Source of the DNA: Antedon mediterranea
Taxonomy: Eukaryota > Echinodermata > Crinoidea > Comatulida > Antedonidae
Length of the DNA: 64,000 nt
Assembly (NCBI RefSeq): GCF_964355755.1
Contig: NC_092670.1
Span: 15,685,201-15,749,200, forward strand
Direction: 5' to 3'
Of the stretch, positions 44,301 to 53,899 are shown in pieces. The notes below the pieces were generated by a model. That model was not told where the DNA came from, did no database searches, and worked only from the letters and a program-made list of their open reading frames with translations. The position numbers and the translations under genes were made by a program. Position 1 is the stretch's first letter, and each line of letters starts with the position of its first letter.

Positions 44301-47300
44301 GCACACGCTAATCCATTCATTAAAGAGAGCAGTCGCAAATATTAAATATTATTTTCAATTTACTTCTGAAATGATTGAATCCATAGATTAAACTTGCCTG
44401 TACATAGAACATAACTCTTAGTTTGCTGCTTTTCACACATAAAACACATTTTGAGAAAGGCAAATAAAAAAAATGACAAAGCTGCTTTATATTGTATGTC
44501 AAATTATGCATGCATTGTTTATTTTTATAGACAATATTATTATCGCTCAGTTGATGTGTAACATTATGCATGGTATTGTTTGTCATATTTACTATTGATG
44601 ACTTTCCACCGACTTAACTGGCGTTAAGAATGGTGTGAGTTGAAAGACCCAAGATGGTAGAGATGAATACTTGATAACCCTAACTAGTTTGACAAAAAAG
44701 TGTGCCCAAATATGGTAGTGATAATATGATAAAATATGGTATAGTAGTGATATGATATCATATCATATGGGCCCATCACATTTCTTCGTCACATAAATTT
44801 TGCTAGTGTAAACAGAGTTTAAATATATTTTGTCTCTTGTGTAATTCAATGTTTTGCCTGGAACACATGGTTGTGTGCTGCGTTAAAAATTATATTACAT
44901 GAAATATATACAGAAATATATTACATGTTTGTATATTTTGAACTTTCATAATTTGCTGTAAATGTAAATGATATTAAAATTGTAAATATACGATCACTAT
45001 TATTATGATGTTAATGATATAGTGTGTTGATCTTGTATATTTGAAAGACAATAATAATTTAAAATTTCCTTATGAATACATTTTTACGTTATGATAAAAC
45101 TTCCAATCAATCACCGATGCTGCTTACTGTAGTTTAGATAAGATAAAGTTTGTTTCTAGTATGTACTAATATGACAGCATTGACTAAAATGACTACACCG
45201 CCTCAGGTACAAGACATTATTAACTGTTTCTCTATCAGACTATTAATAATTTTTTAGAATTTTGTAGCTACTAGAGACATAATCTTAAAAGGGTGATAAA
45301 ACACAAATTTATTCCAGACACCAACTGAAAGCTAATCATATTTTGTGAAGTATCAACTGTCCACACACAGAATTAGGATCACTGCCGAATAATCTGTAAA
45401 CACTCACTGATAGGTCCAAAATATCATTTAGCATATTATTAAAATTCTTTTATTTAGTCTTTAGGTACAATATAGCCATGGATTACCAATAGTCAATTAG
45501 TCACTCTCCTCTCAGATAGGTGGTAATCTTTTAAACGATGAGTTCACTTTGGAAACCCCCTACCTGACTCGAATGATGAACTTGGTTCACACGGGTAAAC
45601 TGTGTACACTGGACCTACTTACTCAACAATATAGGGAAAATGACCAATTATTTAACTTAACCAACCATCAGAGCAAGCGCAGTAGTGTAGATGCTAGTGA
45701 TTTGGAGTTGTGGGTTTGATTCTCACTCATTGTGTTTTTAAATGTACCTACTAGGCCTAAATAAAATATACCAGAGTAAGAAAATCATCTGACCAATTAG
45801 CTCTTTGATGCAAAGTCAGTTAGTATAATATAAAAATGAGTTTTTACCTTTTCATCTCTGTTCTCCACAGTAAACTAGCAATAGAAATTGCTGCTAAGAG
45901 TTTTTTCTTATGGAAAAGCAACATGGGAACCTCTTGAATGATTTCACAAATATTTTCTCTTTCCAAAACTCTGTCAAATATTAATAGTAATATTGCAATA
46001 TTACCTACAAAAAAATTGTTAGATGAAATACTGAATATAGCTATAGTAATTTCAGTATAGATACTGTATATGAGAAGTGGTAATAGAGAGCTTTAGATTT
46101 GTGATGACCAGCAACCTTGGCTCATTAATGTATCATCAGTCATCATTTGAACTGAGAAACCACTAAGTTTATGTCAAGGAATAAAGTGAAGAAGAAACTT
46201 GGAAACAGGCGCACAATTAATTAACATGGCCTAACTTATTCCTTGGTGGTCAAAAGTTCCCTAGTATTGTAGATTCAATCCTGAATTTATCTCTTAGTAT
46301 TCATACTTACGTTGACAATTTAATGATCTCTGTTTGTAGATCAATGATGTCAAGTTCCACATCTGTTGTTGCACTACCAGTAAGGAAGGTACTGAGCTGA
46401 GACACCACATTGTACTGTCTTATAGCCTTAATTCCTAACTCTGGGTCAAATTTCAACACCTTACGTAAAACTTCAATTGAAGACTGTTGAAGACTAAACG
46501 TGTCAGAGTTAATAATGGTTGTCAAAATCTTCTGAAAAGTTTCATATTCAAGTTGTAGGCGTTGTTTCTTCAGTGGAGAATCTTTTTGAGTAGTGACGAG
46601 TGTTTCTTGTGAAGTTTTAAGCTGCTCTTGTTGAATCTGTAAGATGTCTTGTGAAATGTTATCCTGCTCTTGGTGAGTCTTTATTTGTTGAAGGATTGTG
46701 GAAACAAAGAAATCTTCGGCAGCAGATTTGACAAACATTGATGAGTCTTTCAAGCAATTCCAGGCTACTTCGTTTGCTCCTTAAAAAATTGTAAATATAA
46801 TCAATAACTGTCTTAATGATTCACAAAAACAATAATTTGAATGGAGATACCAAGAATATCAGGACAATTCAAAGACACATTATTTTGAAGGCAGTAAATT
46901 GTTAATAGCGCCCTCATGTTTGTTTCAAAGAAGCTTTGCAGAATACAATTTCTTAAAAGAAACCTAAGATTCCCCATACAAACAATAATTTGAATGGAGA
47001 TACCAAGAATATCAGGACAATTCAAAGACACATTATTTTGAAGGCAGTAAATTGTTATAGCGCCCTCATGTTTGTTTCAAAGAAGCTTTGCAGAATACAA
47101 TTTCTTAAAAGAAACCTAAGATTCCCCATATGTTAATAAAATTTGTTATAATAATATGCAAGAGCAAAAACGAGGATATTCTTTTCACTGTATTATTGAT
47201 TGGTTTCATACACTATTAAATTGCATACATTTCAATATATATTCAATTTATTGCACATTGCTCAAAACGCATTATAAATTAAATAACAAAATATTAAAAA

Positions 47301-48746
47301 TTCATCACTACACTTAATTAAAAATATTTAATTTATAAACCCATCCTCCATGTCAATGTGCGACTAATGTTCAAGTCAAAGAAAAAAATAGAAGAGAAAA
47401 ACAAACCAAAAAATAGATAAATACCATTTTCACTTTAATTTGTATTATGAACATTTTTGAACTTTTTTTTTACATAAAATTATTATTTTGTGTTGGCTGC
47501 AGTTAACTTTTTATTATATTAGTAATTGGTAATTCTTACCATTTTGCAAAATGCGTAGAGATTTGACACGGACAGCACGAGTAACTGCTTCCAACCATGC
47601 ACACCGTACTGATGGATTCCACCATAGTTCTTCTTGTGCTTGGTTGATATGCATTTCAAATATATTGCTTGATACATCTACAGCTTTTATTTCTGATGAA
47701 GCACCAACAACTTGTTCAGTTGAACATTCTTTTTTTAATGAACTCCCACAGACATTAAAAGCACAAGCAATGTCAAACTTGTGTGTTGGAGCGAACTCAA
47801 TCAGGATGCTTAGAACTTTCAAAGCAAATACTGTTCTTTTTGAATTTGGACCGTACTTCAAAGAATCAGAAAGAAATCGTACAACTGCTGACGTTTCAGC
47901 TACTAAGTTGCAGTAGTATTCTGTAAGGATAAAATTCAGGTTTACTACTTGGTATTATGGCAATAATATTAAGGATGTCTGAACATTTTGTTTATTTACG
48001 ATGACCTATTTACGATGACCTATTTACAGTTGGTAGAAGTTACGGGGAATTTGGGCAATGCTATCTATTTTTCAACACAGTTCTGGTAGATTCTAGGTTC
48101 AGGCAATGACTGTAGCTCCTAGGTAGCTCCTTATTATCTCAGCGCTTATACCACTGTGATTTTATTTTAATTCTCCCTTTAAAACCAAATCCGAAAAACA
48201 TTTACCATAATTTACTGTAAATGTTAATTGTTATGACCCTATAATTGTCATTCGCACACAATTATCTAGGTTAACTTTTTTTAAATAGCCAATCAATGGA
48301 AGATTTGTATAATGGGTCTTTAAGTCATTATGAACCGGATGTATAATATCAGCAGAGAATGAAAGACAAACAACAACGTTCTCTTTGTGTATAAAGGATT
48401 ACATTTTAAAGTGATTTTCTCAAACTACTGTACCTCGCAACTTTGGAAACTGTGCATGTTTTAAAATACTGTATCCGTTACTATACATGCCCCATAAAAC
48501 CTTAATTACTAAATCTGTGTTGTGATACATTCCCATTTCCTAAAATGTTTGGGTTGGATATAGCTGCATTTACATTTATTCTACAGACCTTTTACTGGTA
48601 AAATAGTGTTTACCTTTTGTTTTTGACGATGTTCTTAGCCAGTCCAGTAATTTTTCAGCAAAGGAGTCATCTTTAAAACTATCCTCTGACTTTAATACAA
48701 TGTCTAGAACTTGTGGAAGGAACTTCATACACGTATAGAATGCCAT
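35372..48746 (-). CDS. BRAT1: BRAT1, HEAT-repeat partner of INTS11
   Basis: Coding exons in transcript order: 48746-48614, 47920-47540, 46779-46311, 45970-45848, 42420-42228, 40363-40186, 39402-39332, 37554-37389, 36922-36753, 36301-35372. They total 2814 nt, 937 residues (human 821), GT-AG with consistent phases. The N-terminus carries FAEKLLDWLRT, close to the vertebrate EKLLDWFKT block. HEAT-type helices include NWERRDSGVGFIDHVL, ESYVRATAAVSMSRL and DGGFARRAAIESL. The C-terminus is LLLEDIVATATP...DCY, as in vertebrates (LLQDMLATGG...DCY). BRAT1 binds cytoplasmic INTS11/INTS9, and its C-terminal Cys region sits in the INTS11 nuclease site; it is also linked to ATM signalling. The last exon is very long (930 nt). 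The fourth exon's acceptor was chosen by frame: a nearer-looking acceptor at 46006 gives an immediate stop. Confidence 0.9.
41367..41471 (-). mobile_element. Solo copy of the CTAGTGGGAACCAAGC element
   Basis: In a BRAT1 intron. GACCAATTACAATTGACAGT, TGTGATTGGTTAAATCACTT and TTCTAGTGGGAACCAAGC match the units of the foldback cluster at 54.6-55.0 kb, with divergence. Confidence 0.75.
44681..44820 (+). mobile_element. Palindromic MITE, copy 13 (degraded)
   Basis: Lacks the 5' terminus; keeps CTAGTTTGACAAAAAAGTGT and a diverged CACATAAATTTTGCTAGTGT end. It lies in the BRAT1 intron between exons 45970-45848 and 42420-42228. Confidence 0.82.
46831..47130 (+). repeat. Two-copy tandem duplication, 153-bp unit
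   Basis: Units start at 46831 and 46984 and are almost identical (AATAATTTGAATGGAGATAC at both starts), except for a 1-bp change in the GTTAATAGCGCCC region. It lies in the BRAT1 intron between exons 47920-47540 and 46779-46311. The near-identity means the duplication is recent. Confidence 0.95.
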
Positions 48747-51523: not shown

Positions 51524-51590
51524 TGTGAGCCTTGCGCAATTTGAATCAAAATATTTACATCAAATTGCGCAGTAACCTGCTGCGCAAGTA
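51524..51590. repeat. Fragment related to the TTGCGCAA element
   Basis: CCTTGCGCAATTTGAATC and its facing ATCAAATTGCGCAGT form a loose palindrome of the same type as 52198-53000. Confidence 0.6.
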
Positions 51591-52161
51591 TTTTTAGTAT
51601 TTGATTATTTATATAACCAAATCACGATAACCTTACTTAATATCATAAATTTATAAATAATGCAAGGAAAAATTATTATTTATTAATAAACTTAACAGAA
51701 TAAAATGTTTTGGTTATGTTTTAATAGAGAGGTCTAGTTAGCTAGCCTAGAAAAAAGTCACATGTGTTTTATAATGAGCTAATGTTGCCAAGCTGGTATG
51801 CGAGACTGTTGTTGAGTGACAATGAGTGAATATGGGCAGTTTTGTACAATTTCAAATTGCGCATGTACTTGACAATTTTGTTTTTATATTATCCTAAAAT
51901 AAAACTACCAAAAGCAGGCAACACCGGTCCCCTGCCTGGCGATACCGGTGCTTACCGGACATACCTAGATTAGTATGACCGGGCAGGGAGGAAATCATTA
52001 TTGCAATGGATTTTACGGGCCTAGTTAGGCCTACTACTATGTACTAATTAGACTCAGTAATTAGGATAGTACAGTAATATAGTAGGCCTACATAGCTAGC
52101 TACAGTAGGCTCTTCTAGTCTCTAAAGTCTAGCCTAGGCCTAGTACTAGAGTAGTAGGTAG

Positions 52162-52186
52162 TATCATGGAGGTAACCTCCATGATA
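52162..52186. repeat. Perfect 12-bp-arm palindrome
   Basis: TATCATGGAGGT and its exact inverse ACCTCCATGATA flank a single base. It lies 12 bp outside the TTGCGCAA inverted-repeat element. Confidence 0.9.
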
Positions 52187-52197
52187 GTATTAGTATA

Positions 52198-53000
52198 TAT
52201 GTTATGCGCGATTTGAACGATTTGCGCAATTTGAAATTGCGCAAAAAAATCCTTGCGCAATTTGAAATTGCGCAAAGAATTCTTGCGCAATTTTAAATTG
52301 CGCAAGGATTTTTTCGCGCAATTTCAAATTGCGCAATCAACTTGCGCAATTTCAAATTGCGCAAGAAAATCTTTGCGCAATTTTAAATTGCGCTGCACAA
52401 TTTGTAAATTGCGCAAGATAGTTCTTGCGCAATATGACACCTTTGCGCAATTTGAAAACGAACTGTAAATTTTCCCATACATGGCTAGGCTAGGCCTAGG
52501 CAGAGGAGTTTAAAATTTAGTATTTTATTATATAAATAAGACCATTTCAATGAAGATAATGTTTAATACTCACTTTTTAAGTTTTTAATATTAGTTTAAG
52601 CTAGGCCATGTAACCTAGTCAGTATCAGTAGTCCAGACCCTAGCTAGGCTAGAGTAGTATAGCCGGCCGCCCGCGCCGCGCCCGCCTGGTGGAACACCAC
52701 CGCTTCGTTTTCCTTCGTCGGTTCTTCGACGGTATGCTAACTTATAACAATATTTGCACTACTAAAATAAGGAAATGCGATATTTATCTTTAATTTTGAA
52801 TCATTCTTAGAAACTACTATAAAAATATGGGTGTGCATGATTTCACAATCTGTCGAAAAACCTTGCGCAATTTGCAGATTACTTGCGCAATTTAATACGT
52901 TGCTTGCGCAATTTGAAACACATGTTTCAATTCAAATTGCGCAAGGATTTTTTTTGCGCAATTTCAAATTGCGCAAATCGTTCAAATCGCGCATAACATA
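52198..53000. mobile_element. Inverted-repeat element built from TTGCGCAA palindromes
   Basis: Terminal inverted repeats of about 72 bp start TATGTTATGCGCGATTTGAA at both ends and differ by one A in a poly-A run (52198-52270 against 52931-53000). TA flanks each side. The arms are themselves arrays of 23-bp palindromes, TTGCGCAA-TTTSAAA-TTGCGCAA, facing each other. About 19 exact TTGCGCAA cores occur between 52219 and 52980. The spacer includes TAGGCCTA-type palindromes and a CpG-rich patch (52660-52740). There is no transposase ORF. Confidence 0.85.
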
Positions 53001-53899
53001 TACATGCAGTAGGCCAGTACTGTAGATCGTCTTACCACCAGTTGGTCCCGATAGTCATTTGTGTTATTCTGTTATATAAATTAATGTGCCACATTTCATT
53101 CTCATTTTCCGAGTATGTTTTGGGCCCTATCGTCTTATTTATTGGGCCCGATCGTCTTTCACCCTTGATGGGTAGTAGATGAGTAGTAGTAGCGGAGTAG
53201 TAGTAGAGGCCTACCTCTAGCTAGGCTAACTAGGCTAGGCCTAGAAGCTAGTATAATCTAATATAAAACAATCAATTTCAAGAGTAATACCTATATAGAA
53301 ACTTCAGCTGTCCAATATTATGTTTTATTTTGCTAGTATAAAAAAGAATCCTAGGCCTAGGCCTAGTCGCGATCATACATCTCGCGCGGGGGACGAACAC
53401 ATGTGTTTCACTCTGCTGCTGCTTCTTCTTCTTTAATATAGAGAGCGTATCGTATCGCGCTAATCAAAGAAAAAAAAGCATTCTCAAAACACTCAATTGA
53501 AGAGAGAAAAACACAATTCTACAAAGACTACTAGTTTAATATTAATATTAACCGTCGGGACTCGCAAACAAATGAAAATGTATGAGTGCCAACGTTTCAC
53601 ATTTAATTTCACAAATTAAAAAAGTCAAAGAGAAAGTATAATTTGTTTGTATCGATGTGATTTTCGCGTGTTGTAGTCGAAATCTTGTGCTTGTTTCATC
53701 AATTAGCCTAAGAATAGTTTAGGTTGAAACTGCTCAGGATGCAAATGTTTTTAAAATGATAAATTACCCGACTAATGAATTTCCCCTACAGCAGTAAAAC
53801 AATATAAAAACAGACAAAGAGTTTAAACTGCATTAACGTATAAATTATCAAAATTAGTTTTTATAGTAGGCCTATTTCCAGTTTCAGAAATCGCATCCA
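53001..53899. other. Noncoding region rich in TAGGCCTA motifs
   Basis: Contains repeated CTAGGCCTAG palindromes (53205-53365), a CpG-rich stretch (53365-53460) and no recognisable exon. It could belong to the BRAT1 promoter domain. Confidence 0.35.

Follow-up and report, generated by a model that had tools for sequence, protein, structure and literature searches.

Introduction

How does a segment of 0.8 kb come to hold about 20 copies of one 8-bp core that resembles a C/EBP-type (bZIP) site, and do these copies serve a host transcription factor or the DNA element in which they lie? The question is raised by a segment in Antedon mediterranea DNA, located in what is called the window below, i.e., the whole stretch of 64,000 nucleotides analyzed here (contig NC_092670.1, positions 15,685,201–15,749,200). 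A preliminary description, made from the letters alone, took the segment for a mobile element that would deliver a ready-made bZIP binding array or extrude as a cruciform. The matter is of general interest, as mobile elements can disperse across a genome numerous copies of a motif resembling a host transcription factor site. Here, we report the boundaries of the element, its family in the genome and its target sites, and we discuss its classification and the possible origin and role of its repetitive ends.

Structure of the Element and of Its Arrays

The alignment of 19 copies together with their flanks places the element at 52200–52998 of the window, a length of 799 bp, and the following features can be assigned:

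52196..52199, no strand: left target site duplication TATA; the empty sites of copies L008 and L016 show the same duplication
52200..52998, no strand: whole non-autonomous element (MITE), TGTTATGCGCG...CGCGCATAACA, from the aligned copies
52200..52266, plus strand: left terminal inverted repeat (TIR), matching the right end perfectly over 50 bp and at 98.5% over 67–68 bp
52204..52218, plus strand: terminal motif ATGCGCGATTTGAAC, identical in 12 of 15 bases to the array unit TTGCGCAATTTGAAA
52222..52450, no strand: left array with 13 exact TTGCGCAA cores, from core count and spacing
52461..52860, no strand: non-coding interior, partly different between subfamilies, from the copy alignment
52863..52976, no strand: right array with 6 exact TTGCGCAA cores, from the core count
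52932..52998, minus strand: right terminal inverted repeat, the inverted match to the left end
52999..53002, no strand: right target site duplication TATA, from the flanks of the aligned copies

The window copy opens with TGTTATGCGCGATTTGAACG and closes with its reverse complement. The nearly identical ends of the preliminary description are hence an inverted repeat as claimed, although not of the 72 bp given for it, and the flanks that it read as TA are indeed duplicated, but as 4-bp TATA on each side. The interior contains a GC-rich block (61.5% GC across 52650–52740). Pfam returned no family over the cut-off in the two tested frames that overlap the element, and Rfam none at the gathering score anywhere in the window.

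The earlier count of about 19 exact cores in 0.8 kb was reproduced: 19 exact TTGCGCAA cores lie within 52200–52998, where 13 fall into the leftmost 260 bp of the element and 6 into its rightmost 140 bp, and the 20th core of the window is found at 51532. In 100 dinucleotide shuffles a 64-kb window held on average 0.66 and at most 3 cores, and 20 were reached in none. The step between cores is mostly 15–16 bp, and core pairs form 23-bp palindromes about 31 bp apart. Of the stacked 23-bp palindromes described before, five are exact copies of TTGCGCAATTTNAAATTGCGCAA (52222, 52253, 52283, 52342, and 52954); the remaining core pairs of the window copy are palindromes of the imperfect kind only.

The left array also includes inverted arms of 54 bp with 7 bp between them, and the left 261 bases of the element fold as single-stranded DNA with −104.9 kcal/mol compared to a mean of −52.8 kcal/mol for 200 dinucleotide shuffles (z −14.2). 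It is extremely unlikely, in our view, that the element acts as a hairpin source for small RNAs or has a structural role via a cruciform: the fold and the inverted arms would suit such a role, but the palindromes by themselves account for a fold of this strength, which does not show that a cruciform is extruded in cells, and the negative Rfam result points the same way.

Two further structures were observed nearby. Just outside the left end of the element, at 52159–52189, lies a near-perfect 31-bp palindrome, TAGTATCATGGAGGT-A-ACCTCCATGATAGTA, and positions 51531–51710 are occupied by an old decayed relative, TTGCGCAATTTGAA...TCAAATTGCGCA, which has 20 further matches of 69–87% identity (19 candidates, all scored). 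The preliminary description placed the element a few kb upstream of BRAT1, a neighbor that was not confirmed: two exon-like open frames on the minus strand at 46307–47954 (157 and 146 aa) perhaps represent this gene, but neither a PDB (E 0.1) nor a Pfam match (cut-off) was obtained for them.

A Young Family With High Copy Number

The genome (354 Mb, 18 contigs) was searched for further copies. A 22-bp pattern of TA plus terminus gave 202 exact matches and 706 within two mismatches, with 0 in both cases for the reversed control, so that other copies with the same TIR, for which the preliminary description had proposed to look, are abundant. The exact 23-bp palindrome occurs at 1,692 sites (counted once per strand); with five exact sites in the window copy this corresponds, very roughly, to an estimated 300 copies. 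Eleven of the 19 aligned copies, the main type to which the window copy belongs, are 99.4–99.9% identical to the consensus and the last burst was therefore recent, while the other eight (76–97%) are mostly members of other subfamilies or chimeras. L155/L168, a relative of the decayed element at 51531–51710, begins with GGTTATGCGCAATTTGAACGGTTTGCGCAATTTGAA, so that the lineage seems to predate the recent burst by far. The family is mobile, young and present in high copy number. The proposed mobile element is strongly supported by hundreds of ends, by 4-bp duplications and by the empty sites of two copies, and the copies and duplications exclude the contrary case of a single copy lacking a target duplication. 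A literature search that mostly covered the openings of abstracts returned no earlier description of this MITE family, which does not prove that none exists.

The fetched copies fall into at least three subfamilies, A (window-like), B (L002-like) and C (L004-like), with A/B chimeras in L003, L009, and L014; the interiors can partly not be aligned between subfamilies, and the ends and arrays are still recognizably alike. When 163 end pieces were assigned to the nearest subfamily, 54 left and 69 right ends were of type A, 13 and 8 of type B, and 9 and 10 of type C. In subfamily A, 41 of the 54 left ends carry 13–15 cores and 66 of the 69 right ends 5–6 cores; core numbers are more variable in B and C. 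Left ends range from 3 to 15 cores in A, 3 to 11 in B and 2 to 11 in C, with clean gains and losses of units. Mini-copies with both termini and a target duplication also exist, namely L059 (49 bp, 1 core, duplication TATA; G000:C3:25663591-25663639), L089 (83 bp, 3 cores), and L054 (132 bp, 5 cores), and with their 1–5 cores they indicate that long arrays may be dispensable, or may have been lost after insertion. The three form a natural series bearing on the number of units that an end requires. Two copies are interrupted by other DNA: L106 (G000:C6:24058170-24059910) is broken by another inverted-repeat element beginning CGCCGTGGCTAAAGATACGGTACCGTATT, and L001 (G000:C4:899900-904150) is split by an insert of about 2.5 kb with inverted ends around ATGTATTGTCCCC.

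Target Sites and Empty Sites

A direct repeat of at least 4 bp flanks 24 of the 25 copies seen from both sides, the exception being L003. It measures exactly 4 bp in 20 copies, 5 bp in L054 and 6 bp in three copies, the length of the latter being ambiguous in their TATATA context. Most of the 25 copies were selected for TA at both ends, which favors TATA; all seven at non-TATA sites carry a matching repeat (AATA, CATA, GCTA, TGTA, CCTTA, GATA, and, in L089, TGTA/TACA). Among 157 TA-flanked ends, which were chosen by the adjoining TA so that positions −2 and −1 are ascertained, R is present at −5 in 91% and T at −6 in 85%, and TATA is the commonest site (47/157). The ends thus show that insertion prefers T-R-NNTA targets, fitting RTATAY.

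Empty sites were found for two copies among the matches listed, for which 19 copies were compared locally with fetched loci. The site of L008 is empty in L147 (566–677), which reads TTTGTATA-CTGTAATG with one TATA where L008 has TATA-element-TATA, and L016 also carries no insertion there. The site of L016 in turn is empty in L008, AAAATATA-CATTTACT, with 166/166 bases identical across the junction. L008 and L016 are hence MITE insertions at different points of one host repeat which mutually show their empty sites, and L147 carries a third copy of this repeat. A short L016 query gave no match to L147. Both empty targets are of the form RTATAY (GTATAC and ATATAC). The L012 matches in this comparison derive from a second copy beside L012. 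For the window copy, joined flanks of 201 nt yielded no paralogous empty site: all 33 of 33 candidates were scored and none crosses the junction, as they comprise the two flanks themselves and 31 others that all lie within the right flank.

Classification

Kolobok elements duplicate TTAA, and no TTAA is present among the 24 duplications of the two-sided copies. This rejects Kolobok as well as piggyBac, which has the same duplication (PMC7351741). Tc1/mariner elements, with their 2-bp TA duplication (PMC10045372), are rejected by repeats of 4 bp such as CATA/CATA, GCTA/GCTA, and AATA/AATA, and Ginger1, with its CCGG or CCGT/ACGG duplication (PMC2836005), by the 24 of 25 two-sided copies in which the duplication is TATA or another NNTA.

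Published Ginger2/Tdd transposons combine TGTNR termini and an RTATAY target with TIRs of about 50–180 bp and a duplication of 4 bp, or of 5 bp in Tdd (PMC2836005). The 25 two-sided copies, selected by an exact 20-bp end, read TGTTA...TAACA; their duplication has exactly 4 bp in 20 of 25 cases, RTATAY is preferred at the 157 TA-flanked ends and occupied in both empty sites, and the TIR of the window copy also lies in the published range with its 50 bp perfect and 67–68 bp at 98.5%. As termini, duplication and target match the published group, the element is best filed as a non-autonomous Ginger2-like MITE with a putative link to such a transposase; its membership is read from ends and target only, because no transposase was found. 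This latter result would also suit a MITE of another TGT-ended superfamily (IS481EU-like elements, for instance) or of an integrase-type superfamily yet to be described, and IS481EU families have TGT..ACA or similar ends and can produce 4-bp duplications (PMC10045372). We consider such an origin rather unlikely, since the IS481EU families in that source are known from parabasalids and often have duplications of about 15 bp (PMC10045372), and since the RTATAY target fits Ginger2.

Search for an Autonomous Partner

The autonomous relative that the preliminary description suggested to look for was not encountered at the ends inspected. No transposase-bearing relative was present at 157 of the 202 exact TA-flanked ends, inspected mostly 400–550 bp inwards; of the other exact ends, 28 were paired only by distance (about 0.7–0.9 kb) and 17 neither way, and ends with one or two mismatches fell mostly outside this inspection. 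Among the longer candidates, L001, L081, L082, and L106 seem to be copies into which a different element has jumped, and L144 and L145 (8 kb each) have neither an exact CGCGCATAACA nor a frame that appears transposase-like by eye. Diverged termini were also searched for. The pattern TATGTTATGCGCGB gave 0 matches (reversed control 1) and GTTATGCGCAATTTGAA gave 36 matches, 16 of which were inspected about 1.5 kb inwards: some are recent array-bearing copies (e.g., L160, L161, L169, and L173) and others are decayed, and the frames of at least 150 aa at these 16 places are not transposase-like as judged by eye.

A search for integrase domains (rve, PF00665) yielded 150 scored matches from 838 candidates. 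None of the eight loci inspected contains TGTTATGCG, and each has 0–1 cores. Four of them show a reverse-transcriptase-like motif (L147, L148, L149, and L150), two an RNase H-like sequence by eye (L146 and L153) and two an integrase-like frame only (L151 and L152), and the inspected matches mostly look like Gypsy elements. Separately, an open frame of 366 aa that is integrase-like and ends in a chromodomain-like tail lies on the minus strand of L080 (G000:C3:25658600-25663671), together with other long frames; by eye the whole has a Polinton-type look, and it lies within a few kb of the 49-bp mini-copy, of which we judge it to be a chance neighbor.

Do the Arrays Represent C/EBP Sites?

The C/EBP-beta consensus is given as ATTGCGCAAT (PMC6433916), and TTGCGCAA is the center of it. 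The C/EBP array of the preliminary description therefore stands as far as the 8-bp core is concerned, but just 1 of the 19 cores extends to the full RTTGCGYAAY, and in 18 a single flank is present. According to the same source, one ATTGC half must have T2, T3, and C5 for high affinity, while three changed positions in a site made binding only about 3-fold weaker (PMC6433916). All 19 cores possess at least one full half and keep the positions called critical in both halves. Binding of a host C/EBP protein to the cores in vitro is plausible, because the critical positions do not include the flank base that these cores lack.

Whether such binding explains the array is a different matter. An element that disperses host bZIP sites as an enhancer array, regulating nearby genes or itself, would draw on the match to the consensus center, on the critical positions kept in 19/19 cores and on the 1,692 exact 23-bp palindromes in the genome. 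We think this improbable: besides the rarity of complete sites, the repeated unit TTGCGCAATTTnAAATTGCGCAA is longer than a C/EBP site, and it resembles the terminus of the element, which gives an explanation internal to the transposon. As a cause of the array, C/EBP is thus unproven and the less probable one. A combined history, in which the end signal evolved by convergence towards a host C/EBP-type bZIP site, or was captured from one, and was then iterated, so that bZIP protein and transposase compete or cooperate, appears very improbable to us. Were it true, transposition would be gated by C/EBP activity and the recent burst would have strewn thousands of strong bZIP sites over the genome (1,692 exact 23-bp pairs).

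A Proposed Origin of the Arrays From Iterated End Signals

The array repeats have the look of additional copies of the end signal that the element itself carries, and the putative transposase probably grips them. The terminal ATGCGCGATTTGAAC agrees with the unit TTGCGCAATTTGAAA in 12 of 15 bases, in a comparison made after the unit was known; when the 20-bp terminus was shuffled, the same agreement was reached in 103 of 20,000 dinucleotide and in 2 of 20,000 simple shuffles. Ends reading ATGCGCAATTTGAAC are 13/15 like the array unit by manual count, and the diverged terminus GTTATGCGCAATTTGAA, found at 36 further places, is one step nearer to the unit than the window terminus. As the terminal motif resembles the unit and diverged ends resemble it more, the array is plausibly an iterated end-recognition motif, as would be expected if its units served transposase binding in the manner of the Hermes subterminal repeats (PMC10368747). 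Moreover, arrays are found at both ends and are kept in subfamilies whose interiors align incompletely.

If the cores are bound, they might be expected to change less than the spacers. Between subfamilies we counted 1 core and 11 spacer changes, and within them 23 core and 42 spacer singletons, which lies in the expected direction and is not significant (Fisher p = 0.09); 59 of the 76 left ends entered this test, subfamily C was represented by 3, and the decision to end the region with the last homologous block was taken once the uncut result had been seen. The uncut comparison, which is distorted by a non-homologous tail of subfamily B, gave p = 0.16 (A–B), 0.02 (A–C), and 0.46 (B–C) for left arrays and p = 0.32–0.55 for right arrays.

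The absence of significant core conservation would be expected if slippage or hairpin-primed repair had amplified a terminal palindrome into a functionless, tolerated array, and such neutral growth would also agree with the existence of mini-copies and with array lengths that vary among copies and subfamilies by clean gains and losses of units. We hold it to be rather unlikely. The full layout is preserved in the majority of A-type ends (41/54 left, 66/69 right), which may partly reflect their youth, arrays are still present where a subfamily has had its interior replaced, and palindromes without selection would tend to shorten.

Taking the termini, the target and the arrays together, we consider it fairly probable that a DDE integrase-type transposase of the Ginger2/Tdd kind mobilizes the MITE in trans and that the arrays of the MITE are an iterated end-recognition motif. 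The partner would be a Ginger2-type transposase (H2C2 zinc finger and DDE domain, no GPY/F motif) flanked by TGTTATGCGC, for which the subterminal TTGCGCAA cores and 23-bp palindromes would constitute iterated copies of the recognition motif. Transposase dimers could bind the array cooperatively on its 15/31-bp helical rhythm, whereby the array would concentrate the enzyme at the ends of the element and an array-loaded MITE would out-compete other substrates; binding of host C/EBP-type bZIP proteins would then be incidental. Since the family is young and numerous and offers variants with 1–21 cores as well as clean empty sites, the response of transposition to the dose of subterminal sites would be measurable.

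Comparison With Known Systems

The element shares with MITEs in general that it is short and non-coding, has inverted ends and a target duplication and reaches a high copy number with many near-identical copies; it differs in that its ends are unusually repetitive (19–20 cores in 0.8 kb).

With Ginger2/Tdd it has in common the TGTNR ends, the 4-bp duplication, the RTATAY target, a TIR of at least about 50 bp and many short non-autonomous copies, for which Ginger2-1N1_NV of Nematostella (non-autonomous, 252 bp, >50 copies) is a published example (PMC2836005). It differs in that each end carries a large subterminal array of palindromes and in that its partner transposase was not found; the word subterminal does not appear in the main text of the Ginger2 paper (PMC2836005). 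If our reading holds, the element would represent an integrase-type (Ginger2-like) transposon that uses palindromic copies of its end motif, lined up in long arrays with a fixed phase.

Phased subterminal repeat arrays are familiar from hAT elements, which provide a working analogy for the arrays described here. For Hermes, Tol2, and Ac, short repeats are described close to either end, among them a pair that is palindromic and phased, and these subterminal repeats are bound cooperatively by the transposase (PMC10368747). In Hermes, binding of the palindromic subterminal repeats by BED domains is cooperative, and the phasing is called crucial (PMC10368747). The element is not a member of this group, as hAT elements have 8-bp duplications (8-bp target in PMC10368747) and other termini, and compared to the hAT repeats its units are denser, nearly identical to one another and similar to the terminus itself.
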